12,073 bases of DNA from contig JAISWN010000248.1 of assembly GCA_031271075.1 (NCBI GenBank), forward strand, positions 1 to 12,073. The letters are read 5' to 3'. Made by a program: the position numbers and the translations under genes. The notes below the pieces were generated by a model that saw only the letters and a list, made by a program, of their open reading frames with translations, ran no database searches and was not told the origin of the DNA. This DNA comes from Treponema sp. (GTDB taxonomy: Bacteria > Spirochaetota > Spirochaetia > Treponematales > Breznakiellaceae). The stretch's first letter is position 1. Each line of letters starts with the position of its first letter. Below, piece after piece: positions 273 to 12,073 of the stretch.

Positions 273-340
273 AAACGCCTCCCCTGGCTTAACCGCCCCT
301 ATGCGGCAGGCTCCTGTCACACACCATTTCGGCGTTTTTA
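273..340. terminator. Candidate bidirectional terminator between convergent genes
   Basis: AAACGCC (273-279) and GGCGTTT (331-337) form a perfect 7-bp inverted repeat. On the plus strand the right arm runs into five Ts; on the minus strand the left arm continues as GGCGTTTAT. The 51-base interior can fold into CCGC/GCGG (293-296 with 303-306) and a small CAGG/CCTG stem. The right arm abuts the TAA of the minus-strand ferredoxin gene, the place expected for termination of both converging units. The long apical region makes this a weak intrinsic terminator. Confidence 0.33.
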
Positions 341-607
341 AACAGTGCGCGGCCCTCCGCCTTCCAGCCTGGCTTCCACCTCTTTGTGGAAGAAGTCCAC
401 CCCGCCGCCGCCGGTAACGTGGTGGATCTGCCCGTCCACCGAAACCGCCACACCGGGATTCTGGCATTGGCGCATACAGAAGCTCGACTTGAAGTCGATC
501 CGGTCGTGGAGCCCCTTCTCCTCAATAAGCTGCTGAAAGGTCTGGATAAGGTTATAGGCCCCTTTGATATGGCATGAACTGCCGATACACACGCATAACT
601 CAAGCAT
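338..607 (-). CDS. Small thioredoxin-fold [2Fe-2S] ferredoxin-like protein (89 aa)
   Basis: The 89-residue product has the cysteine pattern C7-x4-C12 ... C44-x3-C48, the [2Fe-2S] ligand set of the thioredoxin-like ferredoxin/NuoE C-terminal fold. The opening motif CVCIGSSCHIKGA and the FCMRQC loop are typical of short proteins found next to [FeFe]-hydrogenase genes. It has no flavin site, signal peptide or membrane segment. It is the last gene of the operon. Its ATG (605-607) overlaps the hydrogenase stop by 8 bases (ATGCTTGA), with an AGGAG about 9 bases upstream inside the hydrogenase gene, so translation is probably coupled. Likely role: electron carrier or accessory subunit for the upstream hydrogenase, in the manner of HndB. 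That role is an inference; a free ferredoxin or a maturation-related role is also possible. Confidence 0.85.
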   Translation of the reverse strand: MLELCVCIGSSCHIKGAYNLIQTFQQLIEEKGLHDRIDFKSSFCMRQCQNPGVAVSVDGQIHHVTGGGGVDFFHKEVEARLEGGGPRTV

Positions 608-2363
608 TGTCCTTCACTCCTTCTCTGTTTTTCCCGGAATAGTCCACGTGGAGCAGTTCGTGAACCCGCCCCTTGAGGATGCCCTGGTAGAGGCTCATCA
701 TCAGGGGGTTTTCCTCGGAACGTTTGATGCCGGTAAGCCGGTCGGCCGCGTAGAGTCCCCGGCCCCGGCTTTCCTTTTCCCCACCCGGCGCCTGGGGCTG
801 CCCCCCTCCGGCGATACAGCCGCCGGGGCAGGCCATTACCTCCACAAAATCGAAACTTTCCTCTCCCCCTTTGATCTTCCCGATCAGGGCGGAGGCGTTT
901 TTCAGACCGCTTACCACGGCTACTTTTATCTCCCGCCCCTCCACGGTGAGGGCGGCGGTTTTGGTCCCCTCCATGCCCCGCAGCCCCTGGAAGCCCAGGG
1001 AAAGCAGGGCGCCCGGGGATTTGTCATCGGAGATCCTCCGCAGCACCGCCTCGGTAACCCCGCCGGTAACACCGAAGATGAGCCCCGCGCCGCTGATGGT
1101 TCCGAAGGGCATGTCCACCGCCTCCGGGGCCAGTTCGCTGAAGACAATCCCCGACTGCTTGATCATCCTGATAAGCTCCTGGGTGGTGATCACGTAGTTC
1201 ACATCAGCTTTGTTACCGGTCCTGAATTCTTCCCGGGCCGCCTCGTACTTCTTTGCCGTACAGGGCATTACCGCCACATGTACATGGGTACGGCTTGATG
1301 TTTGGGAAGCCTCTATCCCGATGACCCGGGCGAACATCTGCATGGGGGAACGGCAGGTGGAGAGGTGAGGCAGGAGTTCGGGGTAGCGGGTCTCGGCGAA
1401 GCGGACCCAGGCGGGGCAGCAGCTGGTAAAGAGGGGCATGGGCCTTCCCCCGCCACCCCCGTTTTTCAGGCGCCGGAGAAGTTCGTTAGCCTCCTCCAGC
1501 ACCGTCAGATCCGCGCCGGCGGCGGTGTCGTAGACCTCGTCAAAACCCATGCGCCGTAGCGCCGCGGCCAGCCGGCCTATGGCGTTCCCCGCCGCGCCGG
1601 CCGCGCTGCCGGGGGCGTTCCCCGTCTCCGAAAGCCTCAGTGCCCTGGCAACCGCCACCCGCACCGCCGGCGCGATCTGCACCGTAACTTTAGTGTTCCT
1701 GTCGTCCAGGGCCTTCCACACTTCCTTTGTGTTGTCCTTTACCGTGACGGCTCCGGTGGGACAAACCGCGGCGCATTGCCCGCAGCCCACGCAGGAGGAT
1801 TCCCCGATGGGGCGATCGAAAACGGCGCTTACCGTCATGGCCGCCCCCCGGCGGGCAAAGTCGATGGCCCCCACATCCTGAACCTCGTTGCACATCCTGA
1901 CGCAGTCGCCGCAGAGGATACACTTGTTCTGATCCCGGGTAACGCAGAGGGAAGAGTTGTCGATCTTCGGCTCCCCGGCGGTGTTGGGGAAACGTACCCC
2001 CTGGATGTTGAAGTGATCCGCCAGGGTCTGGAGTTTGCAGTCCCGGTTCCGGCCGCAAGTGGTACAGTCCCGGCAGTGGTTCGCCAGGAGCAGTTCCAGT
2101 ATGTTCTTCCGGTAGCGCCTGAGCCGCTCAACATTGGTGCGGATGGACATGCCGGGGCGGGGCGGGGTGGAGCAGGCCGCTTCCAGGTCCCCCCCGCCGG
2201 TTTCCACCATGCACATCCTGCAGGCCCCGTAGATAGACAGTTCCGAATGGTAACAGAAGGTTGGAAGATCTATCCCCGCCTTGCGGATAAGTTCCAAAAG
2301 GTTTTTCTCCCCGTTTATCTCCACCGGGAACCCGTCGATAGTCATGTATTCTTTTGTTTGCAT
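600..2363 (-). CDS. hndD: Catalytic [FeFe]-hydrogenase subunit (HndD/HydA-like)
   Basis: The 587-residue protein carries the full clostridial-type layout. An N-terminal [2Fe-2S] domain has C37, C48, C51 and C64. A His-Cys3 [4Fe-4S] site has H96, C100, C103 and C109. Two [4Fe-4S] sites follow (C148/C151/C154/C158 and C191/C194/C197/C201). The H-cluster domain has TSCCPAW (proton-transfer C315, ligand C316), MPCTAKKYE (C368) and ACPGGCIAGGGQP (C512, C516). It should catalyse reversible 2H+ + 2e- to H2 in the cytoplasm; no signal peptide is seen. With the NuoE- and NuoF-like genes directly upstream it fits a trimeric, probably electron-bifurcating hydrogenase using NAD(P)H plus ferredoxin (group A3 in the published scheme, inferred from context). 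GGAGG lies 7 bases before the ATG at 2363 and supports this start. Length is close to Desulfovibrio HndD. A Gly/Ala-rich linker (residues 247-262) and a five-Gly run before the first H-cluster motif are small oddities. Confidence 0.95.
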   Translation of the reverse strand: MQTKEYMTIDGFPVEINGEKNLLELIRKAGIDLPTFCYHSELSIYGACRMCMVETGGGDLEAACSTPPRPGMSIRTNVERLRRYRKNILELLLANHCRDCTTCGRNRDCKLQTLADHFNIQGVRFPNTAGEPKIDNSSLCVTRDQNKCILCGDCVRMCNEVQDVGAIDFARRGAAMTVSAVFDRPIGESSCVGCGQCAAVCPTGAVTVKDNTKEVWKALDDRNTKVTVQIAPAVRVAVARALRLSETGNAPGSAAGAAGNAIGRLAAALRRMGFDEVYDTAAGADLTVLEEANELLRRLKNGGGGGRPMPLFTSCCPAWVRFAETRYPELLPHLSTCRSPMQMFARVIGIEASQTSSRTHVHVAVMPCTAKKYEAAREEFRTGNKADVNYVITTQELIRMIKQSGIVFSELAPEAVDMPFGTISGAGLIFGVTGGVTEAVLRRISDDKSPGALLSLGFQGLRGMEGTKTAALTVEGREIKVAVVSGLKNASALIGKIKGGEESFDFVEVMACPGGCIAGGGQPQAPGGEKESRGRGLYAADRLTGIKRSEENPLMMSLYQGILKGRVHELLHVDYSGKNREGVKDNA

Positions 2364-2384: not shown

Positions 2385-4313
2385 TCATGCGGCTCCAATA
2401 GCTTTGAACGGACAGGCCCCGATACAGGCCCCGCATTTGACACACTTTTTCTGATCGATGACGAAAGGTTTTTTGATTTCCCCGCCGATGGCCTCCGCCG
2501 GGCAGCTTCGGGAACACTTGGAACAGCCCCTGCACTTGTCCGGGTCAATGACAATTTTTCTGAGTTTCTGACAGCTTCCGGCGGGGCAGCGTTTCTCGTA
2601 GATGTGGGCCTCGTATTCGGAACGGAAACTCCGGATGGTACTGAGTACCGGGAAGGAGGCGGTTTTCCCCAGGCCGCAGAGGGCGGTCTCCGAAATGGTC
2701 TCCGCCAGTTCCAGGAGCAATTCTATATCCCCGTCCTCCCCCTTTCCCGCCACGATCCGTTCCAGAATGGCCAGCATCCGCTTGGTCCCTTCCCGGCAGG
2801 GGACGCATTTCCCGCAGGATTCCTTTTGGGTAAAGTTCATGAAGAACCGGGCTATCTCCACCATGCAGGTATGGTTGTCCATCACCACCAGGCCCCCGGA
2901 ACCGATCATTGCCCCGGCCTTTTTGAGGGAGTCGAAATCCATGGGGAGATCCAGATGTTCTTTCGTAAGGCAGCCCCCGGAGGGCCCGCCGATCTGTACC
3001 GCCTTGAATTCCGCCCCTTCGCGCATACCGCCGCCCACATCAAAGATAAGCTCCCGCAGGGTGGTACCCATAGGCACCTCGATAAGGCCGGTGTTTTCGA
3101 TGTTGCCCGTAAGGGCGAAAGCCTTGGTACCGGGGCTGTTTTCCGGCCCCATGGATCGGTACCAGGCGGCCCCCCGGTTGATGATCAGGGGCACGTTGGC
3201 AAAGGTCTCCACGTTATTGAGTACCGTAGGCCGGTCGAAAAGGCCATGCTCCACCGTGCGGGGCGGCTTAACCCGGGGCATACCCCGCTTCCCCTCAATG
3301 GATGCGGTAAGGGCGCTGCCCTCGCCGCAGACAAAGGCCCCGGCGCCCCGGTTGATCCGGAGATCGAAGCTGAATTCGGCGCCCAGGATGCGGTTCCCCA
3401 GGAGCCCCGCCTCCCGTGCCTGGGCGATGGCGGTTTGGAGGCGGCTTACCGCCATGGGGTACTCGGCCCGCACGTAGATGTAGCCTGTATCCGCCCCGGC
3501 GGCCAGGCCGGCGATCATCATACCCTCGATCATCCGGTGGGGGTCTCCCTCCATAATGCTGCGATCCATGAAAGCCCCCGGGTCTCCCTCGTCGCCGTTG
3601 CACACCACGTACTTCCGGCCCGGGGGCTGGCGCTTTACCTGTGCCCACTTCCGCCCGGCGGGAAAGCCTCCTCCTCCCCGGCCCCGGAGATTGGAATCGC
3701 CGATCTCGGCGATGATCTGGTCGGGGCTCATCTCAAAAAGGGCCTTTTCAAAGGCACTGTAGCCCCCCACGGCCAGGTACTCTCTGATGGATGTGGCGTC
3801 AATCTGGCCGCAGTGTTCCAGCACCATCCGGGTCTGTTTCTTGTAGAAGGGGATCTCCTTCCGCCTGGCATAGACCCGATCCTGCTTGCGGTACAAGAGT
3901 TTTTCCGCCGCTTCCCCGTTCCTGATAGTTTTACTGATGATGTCCCCGCAGTCCTCAAGCCTTACCCTGGTGTAGAGGTAGCCTTCCGGCTCCACCAGCA
4001 CCAGGGGGCCCATCTCGCAGAAACCGTGGCAGCCTGAACGTTTTACCCCCACCAGGCTTTCTGTGATCCCGGCCTCGTGAACCGCCGGCTCCTCCCGCAG
4101 TTCCACCGCACAGGGGATGTTTTCCCCCTTCATAAGCTCGATCAATTTTTCGTAGATGCCCAGGGAACCTGACGCGACGCAGCCCGTTCCCGCGCAGACG
4201 AGGATCCTCTTTTTCTCAAGATCACGGGCTCTTTTGCAGCTTTCCCTGAGCTTCCTTAACACGGCTCTGTCTTTAAGCGGCATCCCGCTTCTTAACGTTT
4301 CTGTGCCTTTCAT
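2385..4313 (-). CDS. hndC: NuoF-like NAD(P)H/FMN hydrogenase subunit (HndC/HydB-like)
   Basis: The 642-residue flavoprotein subunit should pass electrons between NAD(P)H and the Fe-S chain of the hydrogenase. Three blocks can be seen. An N-terminal thioredoxin-fold [2Fe-2S] domain has C40, C45, C95 and C99. The NuoF core (about 150-570) has the glycine-rich GRGGGGFPAGRKW (211-223, nucleotide/FMN binding), the NGDEGDPGAFMDR loop, and the [4Fe-4S] ligands ESCGKCVPCREG (C500, C503, C506) plus C546. A C-terminal 2[4Fe-4S] ferredoxin domain has C594/C597/C600/C604 and C624/C627/C630/C634. This three-part layout is that of HydB/HndC in bifurcating hydrogenases and differs from respiratory NuoF, which lacks both ends. 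The ATG overlaps the stop of the NuoE-like gene (ATGA, 4310-4313). A second in-frame Met at residue 11 is possible but less likely given the overlap. Preference for NADH or NADPH cannot be read safely. Confidence 0.95.
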   Translation of the reverse strand: MKGTETLRSGMPLKDRAVLRKLRESCKRARDLEKKRILVCAGTGCVASGSLGIYEKLIELMKGENIPCAVELREEPAVHEAGITESLVGVKRSGCHGFCEMGPLVLVEPEGYLYTRVRLEDCGDIISKTIRNGEAAEKLLYRKQDRVYARRKEIPFYKKQTRMVLEHCGQIDATSIREYLAVGGYSAFEKALFEMSPDQIIAEIGDSNLRGRGGGGFPAGRKWAQVKRQPPGRKYVVCNGDEGDPGAFMDRSIMEGDPHRMIEGMMIAGLAAGADTGYIYVRAEYPMAVSRLQTAIAQAREAGLLGNRILGAEFSFDLRINRGAGAFVCGEGSALTASIEGKRGMPRVKPPRTVEHGLFDRPTVLNNVETFANVPLIINRGAAWYRSMGPENSPGTKAFALTGNIENTGLIEVPMGTTLRELIFDVGGGMREGAEFKAVQIGGPSGGCLTKEHLDLPMDFDSLKKAGAMIGSGGLVVMDNHTCMVEIARFFMNFTQKESCGKCVPCREGTKRMLAILERIVAGKGEDGDIELLLELAETISETALCGLGKTASFPVLSTIRSFRSEYEAHIYEKRCPAGSCQKLRKIVIDPDKCRGCSKCSRSCPAEAIGGEIKKPFVIDQKKCVKCGACIGACPFKAIGAA

Positions 4314-4783
4314 TTCCGTTTCTCCCTGAGTCCTTTAAGCAGTTCCGCCGCTTTCTCCGCAGTCATGGCGGGGTGAACCTGGTCGTTTACGGTCAGTACC
4401 GGGGCAAGCCCGCAGGCCCCCAGGCAGGAAACGGTCTCTACCGTAAAGCCCAGATCCTCCGTGGTTACCCTGCCCCCTTCAAGCCCCAGTTCCTTCCGGA
4501 GCCTTTCAAGGATGGGTATGGATTTCCGCACATGACAGGCCGTTCCGTCACAGATCCTGATGACAAACTCCCCCTTGGGCTCAAGGGAAAAGTTTTCGTA
4601 AAAAGTAGCGACACTGTAGATCCGCGCTTCGCTTAGCCCCAGTCTTCTCGCCAAACGGGGGAAGATCTCCGGCGGCAGGTAACGGTAGTGTTCCTGAATA
4701 CCCTGGAGAATGGCAATAACGGCGCTGGGGCCAGCCCCCAGTTCGTCGACAATTCCATCCACAACCCTGTAATCAAAATCCAT
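4310..4783 (-). CDS. hndA: NuoE-like [2Fe-2S] hydrogenase subunit (HndA/HydC-like)
   Basis: The 157-residue protein has the NuoE/24-kDa layout. An N-terminal helical half includes the family stretch IQEHYRYLPPE and then SEARIYSVATFYENFSLEPK. The C-terminal thioredoxin fold has [2Fe-2S] ligands C78, C83, C120 and C124 (ICDGTACHV and SCLGACGLAP). Length matches the family (about 150-170). It should be the small electron-transfer subunit docking on the NuoF-like flavin subunit encoded next, with which its stop overlaps by 4 bases. A GGAG in an AG-rich run sits about 9 bases before the ATG at 4783. The phosphatase gene ends only 30 bp upstream, so these structural genes appear to be co-transcribed with the sensor/phosphatase pair. 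Confidence 0.94.
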   Translation of the reverse strand: MDFDYRVVDGIVDELGAGPSAVIAILQGIQEHYRYLPPEIFPRLARRLGLSEARIYSVATFYENFSLEPKGEFVIRICDGTACHVRKSIPILERLRKELGLEGGRVTTEDLGFTVETVSCLGACGLAPVLTVNDQVHPAMTAEKAAELLKGLREKRK

Positions 4784-4813: not shown

Positions 4814-5989
4814 TTAAAAGTAACTAACCTTGATCCGCTTACCCATTTCTCTGAGGCAGGCGGCAAGTTCGTCAATTAACCGCATTTTGATACTGAAACC
4901 GATGGGAAGGCCCGGGTTCTGGTGCGCCGGGTTTATCGCCTTCCCCACATAAAAATTGATGTCCGTGGCCTCCCCGAAGAGGAGCCGCGCGATTTGGGAA
5001 GCCCCGTCCCTCCCGGTATTCCAGCGGACGCACTGTTCGTTGGACTTGAGGCAGTCCCGGGCGTACTCCAGTACCCGGTGAATGGTGATTACCCCTTCGG
5101 TTACCAGATCCACCCCTTCGATCTTCGCCGTGGGGGGAATCTCCGGATCTTCGTATTTCGGGTTTCCCGTCTCCAGGGGCTTTTTCAGAAACTCCGCCGC
5201 CAGGGCCGAGGTGGTTCCCCCGGAGACAATGTGTTTCCCCCCCTTGGCAAAAAAGAGGGCCATCATCTTCACGGCGTCACGGGGATTTTCCGGCGGGCCG
5301 ATAAGAAGGTTAACGGGGCATCTCCGCCGTATTTTTACTGTGCATACGGTGGCATCGTCCCCCGGCTCCCCGCCGTAGAGATTGTAACACTTCTCAAGAA
5401 GGATGGAGCTGATGGTCTTGGCGGTAAATTCGGCCTGGTACAGCCCTTCAAGGTATTTAACGATGTCCTGCCGCTGCCAGCCGAAGTTAAGGCTCTTCCC
5501 GATCCCCGCGTGAACCGCCCCGTCGCTAAGGGCGATAAAAACATCCCCCTCGCCGATATTGATACGTGTCTTGTAGATCCTCTTGTCCCCTATAAGCTCG
5601 GCGGTTTTCGGGTACTCCCGGTTTTTCCCGTTCCGCAGTAAAATTACCTGGGGGTTATCGTACTGGATAATCTCCGCGTCCTGGTTTTCATTAATGCTGA
5701 TGATGGTGAAGGTGGAATAGGCAATGCCCCGTTCCCTGCAGATAGGGAGGGTGGCGGCGATGGTTTCCACACATTCTTCCACGGGAAGGCGGCTGGCGAT
5801 CATGGTGGAGAGGATCTTGGAGGTAAGGGTGGAAAGGATGCTTGCCTTGACCCCGCTCCCCAGCCCGTCGGCCAAAACCGCCACGGTGTGCCGGTCGCCG
5901 GGGATTACCTCCACATGATCCCCGCAGAGATACTCTCCGTGCTTGTTTATGCAGGCGTGGCCTACTTCCGTACAGAGATTGGCGATCAT
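4814..5989 (-). CDS. SpoIIE/PP2C-family protein phosphatase linked to a sensory hydrogenase
   Basis: The 391-residue cytoplasmic protein has an N-terminal PPM/SpoIIE phosphatase domain (about 1-220). Metal-site motifs are C-G-D (D24), VLADGLGSGVKA (D41), ALSDGAVHAG (D156) and PGDDATV (D211/D212), so it is probably an active Mn/Mg-dependent Ser/Thr phosphatase. The C-terminal 165 residues form a second domain with GPPENPRD, SGGTTSALAAE, DPEIPP...EGVDLVTEG and INPAHQNPGLPIGF. I recognise these as conserved in homologues from anaerobes but know no function for them. The gene starts inside the stop of the sensory hydrogenase (ATGA, 5986-5989). This is the arrangement of phosphatase-linked sensory [FeFe]-hydrogenases (group C3), so it is the likely output enzyme of H2 sensing. 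Its phosphoprotein substrate is not in the window: I see no STAS, anti-sigma or sigma gene. Confidence 0.88.
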   Translation of the reverse strand: MIANLCTEVGHACINKHGEYLCGDHVEVIPGDRHTVAVLADGLGSGVKASILSTLTSKILSTMIASRLPVEECVETIAATLPICRERGIAYSTFTIISINENQDAEIIQYDNPQVILLRNGKNREYPKTAELIGDKRIYKTRINIGEGDVFIALSDGAVHAGIGKSLNFGWQRQDIVKYLEGLYQAEFTAKTISSILLEKCYNLYGGEPGDDATVCTVKIRRRCPVNLLIGPPENPRDAVKMMALFFAKGGKHIVSGGTTSALAAEFLKKPLETGNPKYEDPEIPPTAKIEGVDLVTEGVITIHRVLEYARDCLKSNEQCVRWNTGRDGASQIARLLFGEATDINFYVGKAINPAHQNPGLPIGFSIKMRLIDELAACLREMGKRIKVSYF

Positions 5990-7692
5990 TTTCCGCCCTC
6001 CCTAAGGCTTTCGGTAAGCTTGGTCAGGGCGATCTTGGTTTCCGCGGCGGTTTCCCCCAGGAGGCTGGCGATCTCCTGTACCGTCCGCATCTGTTTTTCG
6101 ATTACCTGTCCGCTTATCTCCAGGGTCTTGCGGTTAAGCTCCTCCTTGGCTTCCCGCTGGAGCATCTCCCCGGTTACGTCCCGCATGATGCCGATGATGA
6201 TGTGATAGTTCTTGTCGTAGATAACCGACTGTTCCACATACTTCTTGTAGTCCGCCAGAAAAACCCGCCGGTTGTAGCTGCTCTGTTCTTTCTGTACCGC
6301 CTCCACGAAGGGCATGGGATCCAGGATGCGCACCACCTGATCCCCCAGGATGTCCGCAGCCTTAATGTTCATCATCCCGCAGGCGGCGGCGTTGATCTGC
6401 TGCACCTCGAAATTTTCGTTCAGCACGATTATTCCGTTAGGGGTATTTTTAATGATGTTGTCCGAAAAAGACTCGGCCTTTTCCTTGAGCCAGGGAAGGC
6501 ACATTTCAATGTTCGCCTTGCCTTCCAGCACCGCCAGGGCCTTGTCCCGGCAGGTATTGTAACCGCAGCAGCCGCAGTTAAGTTCATCCTCGATCCGGGT
6601 CTTTCCCATTTTCTTCAACACTTCCTCTATCGCGCCGGGGCCTACGTGGATCTTCCCGGGCGCAAGGGAATCGAAATTTCTGGAGAGGGCCTCCGGCGGG
6701 TAATCCTGAACCGCAAAATCCCTGCTCCCCGCGGAAGAATGTACCGCCAGGTAGCTCCGCAGCGGATTCTCCCGGGCCCTGCCCATGGCCGGTCCCCCGA
6801 TGCAGCTTCCCGGGCAGGCGGACATTTCGATAAAGCAGTTCCGAAGCCCTCCCCCGCAAAGGTCTTCCAGAACCTTGACGCAGTTGCCGATACCGTCAAC
6901 GGCAAGGTAGACGTAGTTCCTGTTTTCCTTCGCCATGGTACTGAGGATACCCCCGGTAACCGGAAAGAGCCGGGTCAGGGTCCTGTCGTCCCCGTCCCCC
7001 GCCGTATCCGCCCCGTCCGCCTCCGGTTCTATGCCCCGGCCTCGCAGCCAGGCGGAAAGCTCGCTGAAGGTAAGGACACAGTCCACCGGCCGCTCCGCCC
7101 CGGGACATTCGTCGTCCGCTTCGGCCTTCTTGGATATGCAGGGTCCGATAAAAACCGTTTTGGCCCCAGGGTAACGGCGCTTCAGATCCATGCAGTGGGC
7201 CTGCATGGGGGAAAGTACCGGCGCGGCGCAGGGGATGGCGGCGGGGTAGTATTTCCTGATAAGCAGATTTACTGTGGGGCAGCAGGTGCTGAGGATAGCT
7301 TTTCCCGTATTCCGGTTTACCAGGGCGTCGTACTGTTTTTTTACCATGGCGGCCCCCAGGGCGGTCTCCTCAAGCCCGGCAAAGCCCAGCCGCGCCAGGG
7401 TCTCCCCCATCCGGGCGGCGGAAAAACCGGGGAAGCCGGCGGCGAAGGAAGGGGCCAGGCTTGCGTATACCGGGGCGGAACCGGCGATCAGGGCCTCCGC
7501 CCTGGCAGTATCGCTGCGGATCTCCTTTGCCTTCTGGGGACAGGCGACAAAACAGCGGCCGCAGAGGATACATTCGTCCTGGATGATGTGGGCGTGGCTG
7601 CCGGCGAAACCGATGGACTTGACCGGACAGTTCCTGATGCACTTGTAGCAGGTTTTGCAGTCCGCCGTCTTCAAGGTTAGATATTCAGACAT
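5986..7692 (-). CDS. hydS: Putative H2-sensing [FeFe]-hydrogenase with PAS domain (HydS-like)
   Basis: Order of parts in the 568 residues: 2[4Fe-4S] ferredoxin (C12/C15/C18/C22 and C41/C44/C47/C51); H-cluster domain with STCCPT (C137, C138), IGPCISKKAE (C185) and SACPGSCIGGP (C293, C297); a further [4Fe-4S] domain NCGCCGYNTC...C (C373, C376, C381, C398); PAS domain (about 402-510); and a C-terminal helical, probably coiled-coil segment (505-565). There is no histidine kinase, GGDEF or DNA-binding output. All H-cluster cysteines are present, but the motifs differ from catalytic enzymes (GPC for MPC; GSCIGGP for GGCxxGGG), as in sensory group C hydrogenases. It lacks the N-terminal [2Fe-2S] and His-Cys3 domains of the catalytic subunit. 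The role as H2 or redox sensor signalling to the overlapping phosphatase is an inference from architecture and the 4-base overlap. Start at 7692 is supported by GGGAGGG 6 bases upstream. Confidence 0.88.
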   Translation of the reverse strand: MSEYLTLKTADCKTCYKCIRNCPVKSIGFAGSHAHIIQDECILCGRCFVACPQKAKEIRSDTARAEALIAGSAPVYASLAPSFAAGFPGFSAARMGETLARLGFAGLEETALGAAMVKKQYDALVNRNTGKAILSTCCPTVNLLIRKYYPAAIPCAAPVLSPMQAHCMDLKRRYPGAKTVFIGPCISKKAEADDECPGAERPVDCVLTFSELSAWLRGRGIEPEADGADTAGDGDDRTLTRLFPVTGGILSTMAKENRNYVYLAVDGIGNCVKVLEDLCGGGLRNCFIEMSACPGSCIGGPAMGRARENPLRSYLAVHSSAGSRDFAVQDYPPEALSRNFDSLAPGKIHVGPGAIEEVLKKMGKTRIEDELNCGCCGYNTCRDKALAVLEGKANIEMCLPWLKEKAESFSDNIIKNTPNGIIVLNENFEVQQINAAACGMMNIKAADILGDQVVRILDPMPFVEAVQKEQSSYNRRVFLADYKKYVEQSVIYDKNYHIIIGIMRDVTGEMLQREAKEELNRKTLEISGQVIEKQMRTVQEIASLLGETAAETKIALTKLTESLREGGK

Positions 7693-7706
7693 AGCTATCC
7701 CTCCCG

Positions 7707-7730
7707 CTTTCCGTTTTTTTTTCCGGAAAG
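7707..7730 (-). promoter_or_regulatory. Hairpin with an A9 loop just before the sensor gene's ribosome binding site
   Basis: CTTTCCG (7707-7713) and CGGAAAG (7724-7730) are perfect 7-bp arms. On the minus-strand transcript the loop is G followed by nine As. The GGGAGGG ribosome binding site (7699-7705) begins one base after the stem, and the ATG is 6 bases further. The homopolymer and the stem could affect translation of the sensor gene. No T tract follows, so it is not a terminator. Confidence 0.4.
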
Positions 7731-7802
7731 CCTCTGTAAAGCGAGAAAATATACTGCAGGACTATGACCTGGTTTTTGACGGGTCAGGCGCCGGAACTCT
7801 CA

Positions 7803-7818
7803 GGAACCTTCCGGTTCC
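7803..7818 (-). repeat. Short hairpin with a GNRA-type loop after the kinase gene
   Basis: GGAACC (7803-7808) and GGTTCC (7813-7818) are perfect arms. On the transcript the 4-base loop reads GGAA, a GNRA tetraloop. It lies 11 bases after the kinase stop codon and lacks a following T tract, so it is more likely an RNA-end-stabilising stem or a partial attenuator than a terminator. Confidence 0.35.
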
Positions 7819-7828
7819 CGGATATTCC

Positions 7829-8593
7829 CTATTCGTATTCCACGATATTTACCTGACGGAGAAGGAAATCCCGCTCCTCCGCCTTTTTCTTTACCAGTTG
7901 GGAAGCGGCCGCTATGGCTATCCACTTTTCCACATACTGAAGGGCCGTGTCGCTCTTCGCGCAGAAAAGCTCCAGGTAGCGGTCGGGAATGTCGGGGTTC
8001 TCCGGAAAAAGATCCCGGTACAGGTTGAACATCAGCCAGGTCTGGGCCGCGTCCGCGGAGGCGTTGCCCTGGGTCGCGTGGGACCAGTCGATGATGTAAG
8101 CCTCGTCATTTCCGGTAATAACGATGTTGCTGGGGATAAAATCCCCGTGGCAAAGCTTGGTATGCCGGGGCATGCTGTCAAGCCGGGTGTGAAGCTCGTA
8201 GCGGTTCGTGGCGTCAAGACCGCCGTCGCGGATCTTCCGGTGCATTTTTTCGATTAGTACCGGGAGCCGGGGAGCGTTGTACTTGTGCATTTCAAGCTGG
8301 ATATCCACGAAACGTTCAAGGAATTCGTCGAAACGGTCCGGTTCGTTTCTCATCCTGTCCAGCAGGGTGGTTCCCTCAATGTACTCCCAGACAATGGCCC
8401 ACTTGCCCTCTATCTGCCTTACCTCGACGATCCTGGGAACCTTCAGCCCCGTTTCCCCCACCGCGGCAAGGTTCAGGGCCTCGTTAAACACATCGGAGAC
8501 CGGGTATTCGTTCCCCATCACCTTGTAGACCCTGCCATCTTCCAGGTAAATCGTCTTGTTAGGACGTTCCACGATAATTTTCCGTTCACTCAT
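7829..8593 (-). CDS. APH/choline-kinase-fold phosphotransferase of unknown substrate
   Basis: The 254-residue protein has the aminoglycoside-phosphotransferase kinase fold: a candidate ATP lysine K24 (RVYKVMG), E38 in the following helix, the hinge IVWEYIEGTTL, the catalytic loop LCHGDFIPSNIVI (H149, D151, N156) and the metal-binding IIDWSHA (D169). All core kinase residues appear intact. Families with this fold phosphorylate antibiotics, choline, homoserine, sugars or proteins, and I cannot tell which applies. I place the start at 8593: its ATG overlaps the adhE stop by 4 bases (ATGA) with a GGGGG run 8 or so bases upstream. An in-frame start at 8689 would bury 100 bp in adhE and adds an unconserved-looking leader. 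The tight coupling to adhE suggests a metabolic or regulatory partner rather than drug resistance, but this is inference. Confidence 0.8.
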   Translation of the reverse strand: MSERKIIVERPNKTIYLEDGRVYKVMGNEYPVSDVFNEALNLAAVGETGLKVPRIVEVRQIEGKWAIVWEYIEGTTLLDRMRNEPDRFDEFLERFVDIQLEMHKYNAPRLPVLIEKMHRKIRDGGLDATNRYELHTRLDSMPRHTKLCHGDFIPSNIVITGNDEAYIIDWSHATQGNASADAAQTWLMFNLYRDLFPENPDIPDRYLELFCAKSDTALQYVEKWIAIAAASQLVKKKAEERDFLLRQVNIVEYE

Positions 8594-11220
8594 ACTTTTA
8601 CCCCCTGCCCCGGTATCCCGTAATAGGCGTTTAGGTACATCTGCTTGATCTCCCCGATCAATGGATACCGGGGATTCGCCCCGGTACACTGATCATCGAA
8701 AGCCTGTTCACTCATATTGTCAAGCCGGGAGAGGAAATCTTTTTCGTCGATACCGTACTCCCTGATTGTTTTCCTGATCCCCACCCGCTCCTTAAGCCGG
8801 GCAATGGCGGCGATAAGGCTTTCCAGTTTCTCCTCATCGGTCTTCCCCTTGAGCCCCAGGGCCCCGGCGATTTCCCCGTAACGGGCCAGGGCACGGGGAT
8901 GATCGTACTGGGGAAAGGTTCCCATCTTGGGGGGAGCCTCCAGGGCGTTGAAGCGCAGAACCTCTTCGATCATCAGGGCGTTGGCGATCCCGTGGGGCAG
9001 GTGGTGGAACGCTCCCAGCTTGTGGGCCATGGAATGACAGACCCCCAGGAAGGCGTTGGCAAAGGCCATGCCGGCGATAGTGGCGGCGTTGGCCATCTTT
9101 TCCCGGGCCTTGGGATCGGCGGCCCCCTTCTCGTAGGCCCTGGGCAGGTATTCAAAGATCAACTCCAGGGCCTTGACGGCAAGACCGTCGGTGTAGTCGG
9201 TAGCCATGAGGGAGGCGTAAGCTTCCAGGGCGTGGGTCAGGGCGTCGATGCCGCTGGCGCTGGTAAGCCCCTGGGGGGCGTTCATCTGGAGATCCGCATC
9301 CACAATAGCCATATTGGGGAGAAGTTCGTAATCCGCCAGGGGATACTTCATTCCCGTTTCCCCGTCGGTGATCACCGCGAAGGGGGTTACCTCGCTGCCC
9401 GTGCCGGCGCTGGTGGGCACGGCGATAAAGCGGGCTTTCTCCCCCATTTTGGGGAAGCGGTAGATCCGCTTGCGGATATCCATGAAGCGCATAGCCATAT
9501 CCCGGAAGTCCGCCTCCGGGTGTTCGTAGAGGACCCACATGATCTTTGCCGCGTCCATGGCGGACCCGCCCCCCACCGCGATGATAACATCGGGCTGGAA
9601 ACTGATCATAACGGCGGCGCCCCGCCTGGCGCAGTCCAGGCTGGGATCGGGCTCCACGTCAAAGAAGGTCTCGTGGGCAATCCCCAGCTCTTCCAGCTTA
9701 TCCGTCACCCCTTTAGTGTAAGCGTTCCTGTAGAGGAACCTATCGGTAACGATGAAGGCCCGTTTCTTACCCATTACCGCCTTGAGTTCGTCCAGAGCTA
9801 CCGGGAGGCAGCCCCTTTTCAGGTATATTTTTTCAGGGGCCCTGAACCAGAGCATGTTTTCCCTCCTTTCCGCCAGAATTTTGATGTTCAAGAGCTGCTT
9901 AACCCCCACGTTTTCCGCCACCGAATTCCCCCCCCAGGAACCGCAACCCAGGGTAAGGGAGGGGGCCAGTTTGAAGTTGTAGAGATCCCCGATGCCCCCG
10001 TGGGACGAAGGGCTGTTCACCACCAGACGGCAGGTCTTCATCCGCAGGGCGAATTCCTCCAGCTTGGCCTTTTCCCGCGCCGGGTCCAGGTAAACGCTGG
10101 CGGTGTGCCCGTAGCCTCCGTCCCGGATCAGGGATTCCGCCTTGTCCAGGGCCTCTGCCCAGTCCTTGACCCGGTACATGGCCAGCACGGGGGAGAGCTT
10201 TTCGTGGGCGAATTCCTCGCCTGGATCCACGCTGCTTACCTCACCCAGGAGTATCTTGGTAGATTCGGGAACCTGTATCCCCGCCAGCTCGGCAATCTTA
10301 ACGGCCCGCTGGCCCACGATCCTGGCGTTAAGGGCCCCGTTGATAAGGATGGTCTTCCGCACCCTGTCGATTTCCCCGGGTTTGAGGAAGTAGCAGCCCC
10401 GGTAGATAAACTCCCCCTTTACCGCCTCGTAGATCCCCTCCGGGACGAGGACCGATTGTTCGCTGGCGCAGATCATCCCGTTGTCGAAGGTTTTGGAAAG
10501 GATGATCGAGTTTACCGCCAGCTTGATGTCCGCGCCGGAGTCGATAATGGCCGGCACGTTCCCGGAACCTACGCCGATAGCGGGCTTTCCCGAGGAGTAG
10601 GCCGCCTTGACCATGCCCGGTCCCCCGGTAGCCAGGATAATGTCCGCCTCCTTCATCACCAGGTTGGTAAGTTCCAGGCTGGGCTCGTCTATCCAGCCGA
10701 TGATCCCCTCCGGGGCGCCCGCCGCCACCGCCGCTTCCAGAACGATTCTTGCCGCCTCGCCCGTGCAGCCCTTGGCCCGGGGGTGGGGGGAGATGATGAT
10801 CCCGTTCCGGGTTTTCAGGGCTATAAGGCATTTGAAGATGGCCGTGGAAGTGGGGTTGGTGGTAGGTATAACCGCCGCCACCACGCCGACAGGCTCCGCC
10901 ACCTTCTTGACGCCCCAGGCCGGATCTTCTTCGATGATCCCGCAGGTCTTCGTGTCCTTGTAGGCGTTGTAGATATACTCCGAGGCGTAGTGGTTTTTTA
11001 TCACCTTGTCTTCCACCACCCCCATGCCGGTTTCCGCCACCGCCCTCTTGGCCAGCGGGAGGCGGGCGCGGTTTGCCGCCTCCGCCGCGGCAAAAAAGAT
11101 CCGATCCACCTGTTCCTGGGAGAATAAGGAAAATTCCACCTGGGCTTTCCGGATCTCTTTAAAAGCCCGCTCAAGGCTTTCCAGGTCTTTTACCGGTTCC
11201 CTGTTCGTCAGATCTGCCAT
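8590..11220 (-). CDS. adhE: Bifunctional acetaldehyde-CoA/alcohol dehydrogenase
   Basis: The 876-residue protein converts acetyl-CoA to acetaldehyde to ethanol, oxidising two NADH. The N-terminal CoA-acylating aldehyde dehydrogenase half (about 1-440) has the catalytic Cys in MICASEQSV (C251). A linker (441-465) leads to the iron-dependent alcohol dehydrogenase half with the NAD-binding GGGSAMDAAK (550-559), PTSAGTGSE, and metal ligands D659, H663, H729 and H743. These sit six positions after the iron ligands I recall for E. coli AdhE. Both active sites look intact. AdhE proteins usually assemble into spirosomes. The start at 11220 follows AAGGAAGGG (AAGGA core 8 bases from the ATG). The frame is open 60 codons further upstream, but that would run through the promoter. 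A strong promoter lies 130 bp upstream. As first gene of the cluster it links ethanol formation to the H2 genes downstream. Confidence 0.96.
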   Translation of the reverse strand: MADLTNREPVKDLESLERAFKEIRKAQVEFSLFSQEQVDRIFFAAAEAANRARLPLAKRAVAETGMGVVEDKVIKNHYASEYIYNAYKDTKTCGIIEEDPAWGVKKVAEPVGVVAAVIPTTNPTSTAIFKCLIALKTRNGIIISPHPRAKGCTGEAARIVLEAAVAAGAPEGIIGWIDEPSLELTNLVMKEADIILATGGPGMVKAAYSSGKPAIGVGSGNVPAIIDSGADIKLAVNSIILSKTFDNGMICASEQSVLVPEGIYEAVKGEFIYRGCYFLKPGEIDRVRKTILINGALNARIVGQRAVKIAELAGIQVPESTKILLGEVSSVDPGEEFAHEKLSPVLAMYRVKDWAEALDKAESLIRDGGYGHTASVYLDPAREKAKLEEFALRMKTCRLVVNSPSSHGGIGDLYNFKLAPSLTLGCGSWGGNSVAENVGVKQLLNIKILAERRENMLWFRAPEKIYLKRGCLPVALDELKAVMGKKRAFIVTDRFLYRNAYTKGVTDKLEELGIAHETFFDVEPDPSLDCARRGAAVMISFQPDVIIAVGGGSAMDAAKIMWVLYEHPEADFRDMAMRFMDIRKRIYRFPKMGEKARFIAVPTSAGTGSEVTPFAVITDGETGMKYPLADYELLPNMAIVDADLQMNAPQGLTSASGIDALTHALEAYASLMATDYTDGLAVKALELIFEYLPRAYEKGAADPKAREKMANAATIAGMAFANAFLGVCHSMAHKLGAFHHLPHGIANALMIEEVLRFNALEAPPKMGTFPQYDHPRALARYGEIAGALGLKGKTDEEKLESLIAAIARLKERVGIRKTIREYGIDEKDFLSRLDNMSEQAFDDQCTGANPRYPLIGEIKQMYLNAYYGIPGQGVKV

Positions 11221-11224
11221 AATA

Positions 11225-11294: not shown

Positions 11295-11310
11295 CCGGTT
11301 CCAAAACCGG
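11295..11310 (-). repeat. GC-rich 6-bp stem overlapping the larger leader hairpin
   Basis: CCGGTT (11295-11300) and AACCGG (11305-11310) are perfect arms around CCAA (UUGG on the adhE transcript). This stem shares bases with the 9-bp inverted repeat at 11298-11322, so the two cannot form together in RNA. Confidence 0.45.
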
Positions 11311-11322
11311 GCATTTTGGAAC
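11298..11322 (-). promoter_or_regulatory. 9-bp perfect inverted repeat in the adhE leader (operator or RNA hairpin)
   Basis: GTTCCAAAA (11298-11306) and TTTTGGAAC (11314-11322) are perfect 9-bp arms around a 7-base spacer. The element lies about +21 to +46 relative to the start predicted from the promoter. That suits a repressor roadblock, or a hairpin in the 5' leader. It does not resemble the Rex consensus I know (TTGTGAA/TTGTTAA half-sites), so no regulator is named. Confidence 0.5.
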
Positions 11323-11349: not shown

Positions 11350-11378
11350 AATATATCTATAAAATTTTATCGTGTCAA
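11350..11378 (-). promoter_or_regulatory. Sigma-70-type promoter for adhE
   Basis: On the minus strand a perfect -35 TTGACA (11378-11373) is followed after 17 bp by TATATT (11355-11350), one mismatch from consensus. The predicted start is near 11343, giving a leader of about 120 bases. The spacer contains a 12-bp palindrome ATAAAATTTTAT (11359-11370), and CGATAA/TTATCG arms (11343-11348 and 11367-11372) bracket the -10 region. Both are possible operator sites, but the AT-rich context makes chance palindromes common. Confidence 0.8.
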
Positions 11379-11462: not shown

Positions 11463-12073
11463 ATGGGAAACAAACTGCTCTCTCCCCTGGCGGACGATGT
11501 CTTTAAGGGCATCTTTGCCGACCAGCGCAATATCGACAATTTGGCGGACTTCCTCATGCCCATTGCCAGACTCCCCGCCGAAGAATACAGCCGCCTTACC
11601 ATCGTTGACCCCTACCTCAGACGCCTGTTCAAAAAGGACAAACAGGGGATCCTGGATGTAAAGGTACTTACCAAATCCGGGAAAGTCATCAACGTGGAGG
11701 TACAGGTCTGCCGCTTCGCCGCTATCCGGAAACGGATACTCTACTACCTGGCAAGGCTGATAGGGGAACAGCTCCGCCGGGGCGACAAGTATGAGCGGAT
11801 ACAGCAGACCATCGTGGTGATCATCTGCGATCACCTCATCCCCGGCGAACCGGGACAAGCGGAGGAACCGGGGTATCTTTCCGGCATGGTCTCCGGAGAC
11901 GGGAGGCCCGGCGGGAAGGAACGGTACCTCAACAGTTTTTCGATAAGGAACGATGAGGACGGGGAAACCTTTACGGAACTGGTAAAAATAATTACGATAG
12001 AGTTACCGAAGGTACCGCGGAAGAGGGACGGGAACGCGGCGTGGCCGTGGGCGCGTTTTTTTACCTGCGAGGA
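11463..12073 (+). CDS. Rpn-family PD-(D/E)XK nuclease / putative transposase, 3' end outside window
   Basis: From ATG 11463, preceded by GGAGG (11453-11457) with a 5-base spacer, the frame stays open to the window edge (203 residues seen, roughly two thirds of the usual 280-320). The N-terminus LSPLADDVFKGIFAD, the nuclease core GILDVKVLT...VEVQV (D65, E79, Q81) and the later ITIELPKVP and AAWPWARFF motifs identify the recombination-promoting nuclease (Rpn/YhgA-like, also called PD-(D/E)XK nuclease family transposase) group. Family members cut DNA and promote RecA-independent recombination; copies are often numerous in termite-gut treponemes. A Gly/Pro/Glu-rich stretch at 127-152 looks like an insertion relative to the family as I remember it. 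No terminal inverted repeats or target duplications are seen near the start, so it is not shown to be part of an IS. It is divergent from adhE. Confidence 0.85.
   Translation, partial: MGNKLLSPLADDVFKGIFADQRNIDNLADFLMPIARLPAEEYSRLTIVDPYLRRLFKKDKQGILDVKVLTKSGKVINVEVQVCRFAAIRKRILYYLARLIGEQLRRGDKYERIQQTIVVIICDHLIPGEPGQAEEPGYLSGMVSGDGRPGGKERYLNSFSIRNDEDGETFTELVKIITIELPKVPRKRDGNAAWPWARFFTCE

Follow-up and report, generated by a model that had tools for sequence, protein, structure and literature searches.

We analysed a stretch of 12,073 nucleotides from Treponema sp. (contig JAISWN010000248.1 of assembly GCA_031271075.1), referred to here as the window, which is contig C50 of a metagenome-assembled genome that is 63% complete in 394 contigs; its proteins match those of Treponema most closely. 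Eight genes share the minus strand of the window and encode AdhE, a kinase, HydS, a phosphatase, HydC, HydB, HydA and a 2Fe-2S-like protein. Our subject is the couple formed by the sensory-type [FeFe]-hydrogenase HydS and the adjoining phosphatase, with the following parts:

5986–7692, minus strand: HydS, PAS-containing sensory-type [FeFe]-hydrogenase, 568 amino acids (open reading frame (ORF), Pfam, alignments, model)
7540–7659, minus strand: two [4Fe-4S] ferredoxin sites at the HydS N-terminus, residues 12–51 (Pfam, alignment A5)
6790–7473, minus strand: H-cluster domain of HydS; ligand cysteines and C299-equivalent kept, M353 replaced by Gly, M497 by Ser and S319 by Ala (CpI numbering)
6499–6576, minus strand: extra C-terminal [4Fe-4S] site of HydS (PF04060), C373, C376, C381 and C398 (Pfam, alignment A5)
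6178–6435, minus strand: PAS fold of HydS, residues 420–505 (model topology and relatives; own Pfam score under the cut-off)
6007–6090, minus strand: helical tail of HydS after the PAS fold, residues 535–562, candidate phosphatase contact
4814–5989, minus strand: SpoIIE/PP2C-type phosphatase, 391 amino acids (ORF, Pfam, structure matches)
5330–5989, minus strand: PP2C catalytic domain of the phosphatase, residues 1–220, with no regulatory domain in front
4817–5329, minus strand: C-terminal alpha/beta domain of the phosphatase, residues 221–391, with no Pfam match

At E ≤ 0.01, HydS matched Fe_hyd_lg_C, FeS (PF04060) and ferredoxin sites in Pfam, and no kinase or cyclase domain was found at this threshold. 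The eight cysteines of the ferredoxin sites are invariant in alignment A5 (50 sequences). The PAS score of the window protein (20.4 bits) is just below the cut-off of 22.6; the order of strands and helices at residues 420–505 of the predicted model (mean predicted local distance difference test score, pLDDT, 87.2) reads as a PAS fold, and many HydS relatives carry precomputed PAS domains (PF00989/PF13426). All 50 structure matches listed for the model were hydrogenases, with no PAS entry among them. An earlier sequence-only reading of this DNA had described a PAS-containing [FeFe]-hydrogenase devoid of kinase and cyclase domains, and Pfam, model and relatives agree with it.

For the H-cluster pocket, we compared 82 HydS proteins of clade 1 (phosphatase >50% identical to that of the window) and 13 of clade 2 (~30%), leaving out cut genes and counting one contig twice; CpI numbering was mapped via CpI alignments and the window HydA. 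The ligand cysteines are invariant in these proteins, with equivalents of C300, C355, C499 and C503 present, which we take to be the H-cluster ligands of CpI. In clade 1, M353 is replaced by Gly in 82/82, M497 by Ser in 79/82 and S319 by Ala in 81/82 proteins, and the C299-equivalent is Cys in 80/82. In clade 2, Ala takes the place of C299 in 12 of the 13 proteins and Leu that of M497 likewise in 12. The window HydS has lost the acidic E279 and E282 (two alignments disagree on residue identity at these positions and on R286, but agree on the acidic loss). The window HydA, our internal control, retains C299, S319, M353, M497, E279, E282 and R286. TmHydS resembles the window HydS in having Gly at M353, Ser at M497 and a C-terminal [4Fe-4S] site, but has Ala at C299 where the window protein has Cys. 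These residues give the HydS pocket a sensor-like character, apart from one prototype feature, and the earlier description of an intact-looking H-cluster holds for the ligand cysteines and fails for the group A proton path.

The sole Pfam match of the phosphatase is SpoIIE (63.1 bits, cut-off 25). The alignment with SpoIIE begins at residue 2, and the protein starts with its catalytic domain; neither a regulatory domain nor a linker precedes PP2C in cis in the window phosphatase. D24, D41, D156, D211 and D212 are invariant (alignment A4, 55 sequences), and the PP2C metal ligands presumably fall among these conserved aspartates. The nearest solved structures, headed by a Sphaerobacter phosphatase and including SpoIIE and an RsbU-RsbW fusion, support a PP2C fold. 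The structure-match lists are filled by catalytic-domain matches and therefore say little on residues 221–391, a domain whose between-clade conservation equals that of the catalytic domain. The window phosphatase groups with treponemes (ten tips, support 0.996).

The HydS TGA and the phosphatase ATG share ATGA at 5986–5989 of the minus strand, which is the four-base overlap pointed out in the sequence-only reading. As a special link between HydS and PP2C, this overlap was rejected, because HydC/HydB (4310–4313) and AdhE/kinase (8590–8593) overlap in the same way, the latter assuming the kinase start at ATG 8593, a start also present in L149.

The phosphatase is present in 28 of 97 relatives' genomes searched, and in eight of them at ≥64% identity (own genome included in both counts). 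We fetched 103 loci, 100 via the phosphatase and 3 via HydS, with the best 80 of at least 571 confirmed matches kept; two locus pairs have identical phosphatases, one of them being the same contig twice (L042 and L125). The two genes are adjacent in 101 of these 103 loci. By script, they overlap in 84 of the 101 (spacing −8 in 73, −4 in 8, −1 in 2 and −17 in one), while one locus each has +4 and +5; 15 loci to which the script gave +1 have ATGAATNA at −8 in their printed sequence, so that two real gaps of 4–5 bases are left. In L121 (Leadbettera azotonutricia; 5723–10204), a hydrogenase gene sits between HydS and phosphatase within one operon. The HydS of Acetoanaerobium noterae retains its tail but lacks a phosphatase gene closer than 6 kb; a single family member is encoded at another place of that record. 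The pairing is not due to chance and is near-obligate. Two records are peculiar in their labels: that of A. noterae (NZ_CP154629.1; L143, L169) is labelled a plasmid, yet is 2.63 Mb long and chromosome-like, and a contig labelled Methanocorpusculum (L090) has a Clostridia-like HydS cluster and is likely misbinned.

The two proteins have also co-evolved. Within clade 1, the pairwise distances of HydS and phosphatase, taken over 83 sequences with the window among them, correlate with r = 0.92; over 96 sequences, r is 0.98. The control correlations with HydS were 0.67 for HydA2 (n = 64), 0.63 for AdhE (21), 0.46 for the 2Fe-2S protein (73) and 0.39 for the kinase (35), compared with 0.92–0.95 for HydS and phosphatase in the same control-gene loci; against the pair, kinase distances correlated weakly (0.39–0.41). 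Loci with cut genes were dropped from both sets of correlations, as from the pocket comparison and the neighbour table, and L042 was kept in the adjacency, upstream and downstream gene, pocket and mirror-correlation counts.

Among eight HydS stretches compared, the tail at residues 535–562 is the most conserved. The identity of the window protein to clade 1 is 0.89 in the tail, 0.68 in the extra Fe-S site, 0.59 in the PAS fold and 0.50 in the H-cluster domain; between clades, the values are 0.50, 0.48, 0.15 and 0.33, respectively. The model places helices at 507–545 and 550–565 of the C-terminus with falling confidence. We infer that this tail may contact the phosphatase.

The window contains these further features:

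8590–11220, minus strand: AdhE, bifunctional acetaldehyde/alcohol dehydrogenase, ATG at 11220
7829–8593, minus strand: APH/RIO-like kinase, 254 amino acids, HGDxxxxN motif; start overlaps the AdhE stop
4310–4783, minus strand: HydC-like NuoE subunit (ORF, Pfam)
2385–4313, minus strand: HydB-like NuoF subunit (ORF, Pfam)
600–2363, minus strand: HydA, catalytic [FeFe]-hydrogenase subunit (Pfam), keeping the group A proton-path residues examined
338–607, minus strand: small protein resembling the 2Fe-2S thioredoxin-like ferredoxins that precede HydS in other loci (similarity)
11350–11378, minus strand: promoter-like site TTGACA-17-TATATT ahead of AdhE, the sole one in the window
11299–11321, minus strand: inverted repeat TTCCAAAA-7-TTTTGGAA in the AdhE leader, possible operator

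The AdhE query spanned 8590–11223, one codon more than the ORF from the ATG at 11220. HydC, HydB and HydA, downstream of the phosphatase, make up the subunit set of a NAD-linked HydABC-type [FeFe]-hydrogenase; the NCBIfam A6 model scored 642 on the window hydrogenase against a cut-off of 765, and the score does not fix the subgroup. The small protein has no Pfam family match, its 2Fe-2S domain being assigned via similar proteins of Ruminococcus albus. One promoter-like site against a shuffle mean of 3.9 is weak evidence. The inverted repeat is possibly the operator of some regulator; L127 has, upstream of its AdhE gene, a degenerate version whose spacing, judged by eye, is identical. A Rex operator consensus gave no signal in the window (7 matches at ≤2 mismatches, shuffle mean 8.2). 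Divergent from AdhE, a putative transposase of the PDDEXK_2/Rpn family lies on the plus strand (11463–12071) and is cut by the contig end. Three more [FeFe]-hydrogenase domain matches, one of them weak, occur outside the window on contigs C1, C107 and C322 of the same genome.

The neighbour table covers 95 loci within 9 kb of the pair, many on contigs cut short, and the 40 most recurrent families, of which only some were identified; L143 (no phosphatase in its stretch) and L042 (same contig as L125) were left out. The 2Fe-2S protein was found in 82 loci, the kinase in 39, AdhE in 23, a LysR-type family in 22 and Rex in 17. The LysR-type gene lies upstream on the same strand in 21 of its 22 loci; in L139 of clade 2, such a regulator (6778–7716, plus strand) stands directly ahead of HydS, and in several clade 1 clusters it is further upstream. 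Rex is upstream in 15 loci and downstream in 2, both in treponemes: in L125 it immediately follows the phosphatase, and in L121 a 2Fe-2S protein comes between the two. The window has no Rex gene, and the Rex N-terminal domain had no match in the 63%-complete own genome.

The kinase is upstream on the same strand in all 39 loci that have it. It exceeds the Pfam RIO1 cut-off, and all but one of the 46 distinct copies with ≥200 aligned residues contain HGDxxxxN. Among the 54 clade 1 loci with ≥4.5 kb upstream, 21 have AdhE and kinase, 6 the kinase alone (L069, L087, L089, L090, L110 and L115, without close AdhE), none a close AdhE alone, and 27 neither. All 11 clade 2 loci with that much upstream sequence lack both genes, and the kinase is absent from all 13 clade 2 loci. 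The kinase also occurs on ten other treponeme contigs, in stretches that gave no HydS match. AdhE lies beside it in nine; the tenth holds only a C-terminal kinase piece and no AdhE match. One weak kinase match (30%, in G048) is outside these ten contigs. This weakens the view of the kinase as a part of the HydS unit, yet six loci keep kinase and HydS with no close AdhE. Downstream, a HydA2-like gene comes next in 68 of 80 clade 1 loci with ≥1.5 kb, and HydB/HydC in 3 (L045, L085 and L122); L041, a shorter stretch, is a fourth locus with HydB/HydC. AdhE-kinase and HydS-phosphatase are thus separable units, which meet in the window.

A 2012 study by Ballor, Paulsen and Leadbetter reportedly deals, going by its title, with hydrogen sensors in treponemes of the termite gut; those sensors come from the same bacterial group and, by that title, are of the same protein kind, and Leadbettera azotonutricia carries the HydS-phosphatase pair. 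HydDB describes group C3 as phosphatase-linked putative H2 sensors with Ser/Thr phosphatases and gives their role as undetermined (PMC5037454). The window HydS fits this group as judged by the H-cluster ligand cysteines, the PAS fold after the hydrogenase domain (model and relatives) and the linked phosphatase gene.

A matching cluster of eight genes is present on pRUMAL01 of R. albus 7 (L141), in the order Rex-AdhE-phosphotransferase-2Fe2S-2Fe2S-HydS-SpoIIE-HydA2. AdhE, kinase/phosphotransferase, HydS and SpoIIE phosphatase have the same order in the window, with 52% identity for HydS and 61% for the phosphatase. Of the two clusters, only that of R. albus begins with Rex, has a pair of 2Fe-2S genes ahead of HydS and continues with HydA2 behind the phosphatase, whereas only the window has HydC-HydB-HydA and the terminal 2Fe-2S-like gene after the phosphatase, and neither Rex nor HydA2. 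Expression of a putative eight-gene cluster of R. albus with hydrogenase, AdhE and sensory hydrogenase was reported to be 111-fold lower in low-H2 co-culture, and H2 sensing involving the phosphatase was proposed (PMC6776011); HydA2 and HydS on pRumal01 are described as one transcriptional unit (PMC10838669). We take the clusters of both reports to be the pRUMAL01 cluster compared here.

As in the window, hfsABCD of Thermoanaerobacterium saccharolyticum combines a PAS hydrogenase (HfsB) followed by a serine phosphatase (HfsC) with a genetic link to adhE (PMC5707799, PMC11837493); it ends in HfsD, lacks HydCBA, and is likened to the window by description, not by sequence. Loss of hfsB was reported to raise ethanol, adhE expression, benzyl viologen hydrogenase activity and NADH-dependent alcohol dehydrogenase (NADH-ADH) but not NADH-dependent aldehyde dehydrogenase (NADH-ALDH) activity, whereas strains without hfsC and/or hfsD made ethanol at wild-type yield, hfsC and hfsD being reported as needed (PMC5707799). 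On a signal passed to an adjacent Ser/Thr kinase, the same paper refers to Zheng et al. 2014. The couple of the window is thus a further case of a known sensor-phosphatase type, real and conserved; its near-obligate pairing, its co-evolution and the matching R. albus cluster with published H2-dependent expression bear out the earlier idea of a C3-type couple beside its likely targets.

We consider it probable that HydS and the phosphatase act as one sensor-effector unit, in which the PP2C output makes the AdhE and hydrogenase genes of the cluster follow H2. In effect, two chains would together make up one PAS-phosphatase. The H-cluster domain would read H2, or the redox state set by this domain; PAS and the helical tail would relay a shape change to PP2C, itself devoid of a regulatory domain; and PP2C would alter how far some regulator or enzyme is phosphorylated, making the AdhE and hydrogenase genes track H2. 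Because of the published genetics of homologues, HydS would most likely restrain the phosphatase at low H2, and at high H2 the phosphatase would work, with ethanol and hydrogenase genes on. The interpretation given in the sequence-only reading is partly supported and holds in outline. Its relay through the extra [4Fe-4S] site is doubtful, as the C-terminal cluster of the group D enzyme TamHydS was reported not to be reduced under 1 atm H2 (PMC13104023). Its view of the phosphatase as the only visible output is too narrow: the APH/RIO-like kinase at 7829–8593 follows AdhE and Rex lies near the pair in 17/95 loci, so that signalling could involve parts other than the phosphatase.

Several points weigh against a single sensor-effector unit of this kind. 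The mirror correlation is uncorrected for ancestry and counts one contig double, and its controls are made noisier by short proteins. The tail boundaries were set after the alignment had been inspected, and the extra Fe-S site (0.48) nearly matches the tail in between-clade identity. No natural HydS-PP2C fusion was present among the best 120 of 7,995 chimera-search hits. The clade 1 C299-equivalent stays Cys, as in 17% of sensory sequences and contrary to the other ~83% (PMC10055695). Overexpression of hfsD in a strain free of hfsABCD was reported to suffice for an ethanol phenotype like that of hfsB loss (PMC11837493); this phenotype therefore does not require the phosphatase gene, and metabolism may account for the hfs effect. 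Finally, the phosphatase target may lie anywhere.

A rival explanation is partner switching as in SpoIIE, RsbU and RsbP, where the phosphatase would act on a STAS anti-anti-sigma factor encoded elsewhere and the output would be a sigma factor. We give this a low but not negligible probability. The window phosphatase shares the PP2C fold and conserved aspartates with these proteins, and SpoIIE and the RsbU-RsbW fusion are among its closest solved structures after the Sphaerobacter phosphatase, but it lacks a cis regulatory domain and has an extra C-terminal domain. STAS proteins are present in 12/12 relatives searched, and the own genome encodes two HATPase_c_2 proteins over the cut-off; a Pfam scan of the window found no STAS or anti-sigma gene, STAS had no match in the 63%-complete own genome, and neither was recognised in the 40 most recurrent neighbour families. 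It is rather improbable that kinase and phosphatase work on one target, the kinase phosphorylating AdhE or Rex and the HydS-controlled PP2C reversing this. The kinase lies between AdhE and HydS in both the window and R. albus, its position and motif are as constant as described above, Rex recurs near the pair, and the rise of NADH-ADH but not NADH-ALDH on hfsB loss hints at post-transcriptional control (PMC5707799). Against this stand the weak distance correlation of the kinase with the pair, its absence from the 13 clade 2 loci, and its presence on ten treponeme contigs that gave no HydS match, AdhE being its neighbour on nine of these. In addition, Rex may be merely a parallel NADH input. 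Small molecules are frequent substrates of APH-like kinases. Among the papers listed on phosphorylation of AdhE and of Rex, none stood out for such a link, which does not prove its absence.

We give low credence, and least of all the alternatives, to HydS as a working hydrogenase or scaffold with an incidental phosphatase link, the effects of its loss arising via redox flow. The retained C299-equivalent would suit such an enzyme, and some of what is seen in hfs mutants can be put down to electron flow (PMC11837493). Pairing and co-evolution with the phosphatase speak against it, as do the substitutions at M353, M497 and S319 and the loss of acidic proton-path residues that the window HydA keeps; moreover, benzyl viologen hydrogenase activity rose when hfsB was lost (PMC5707799).

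For the preferred sensor-effector unit, the conserved tail is the best lead, followed by Rex and the kinase, and the comparison yields as targets the 28-residue HydS tail, the extra phosphatase domain, and kinase and Rex as candidate partners. There is a small chance, only a little above that of the working hydrogenase, that HydS-PP2C is a two-chain H2-gated phosphatase opposing the APH/RIO-like kinase, with H2 directly setting the phosphorylation of AdhE (or Rex). If true, AdhE-kinase and HydS-phosphatase cassettes of spirochetes and Clostridia would build a write-and-erase module choosing between ethanol and H2. H2 sensing and the choice between acetate, ethanol and H2 in gut fermenters bear on ruminant methane and on ethanol strains.

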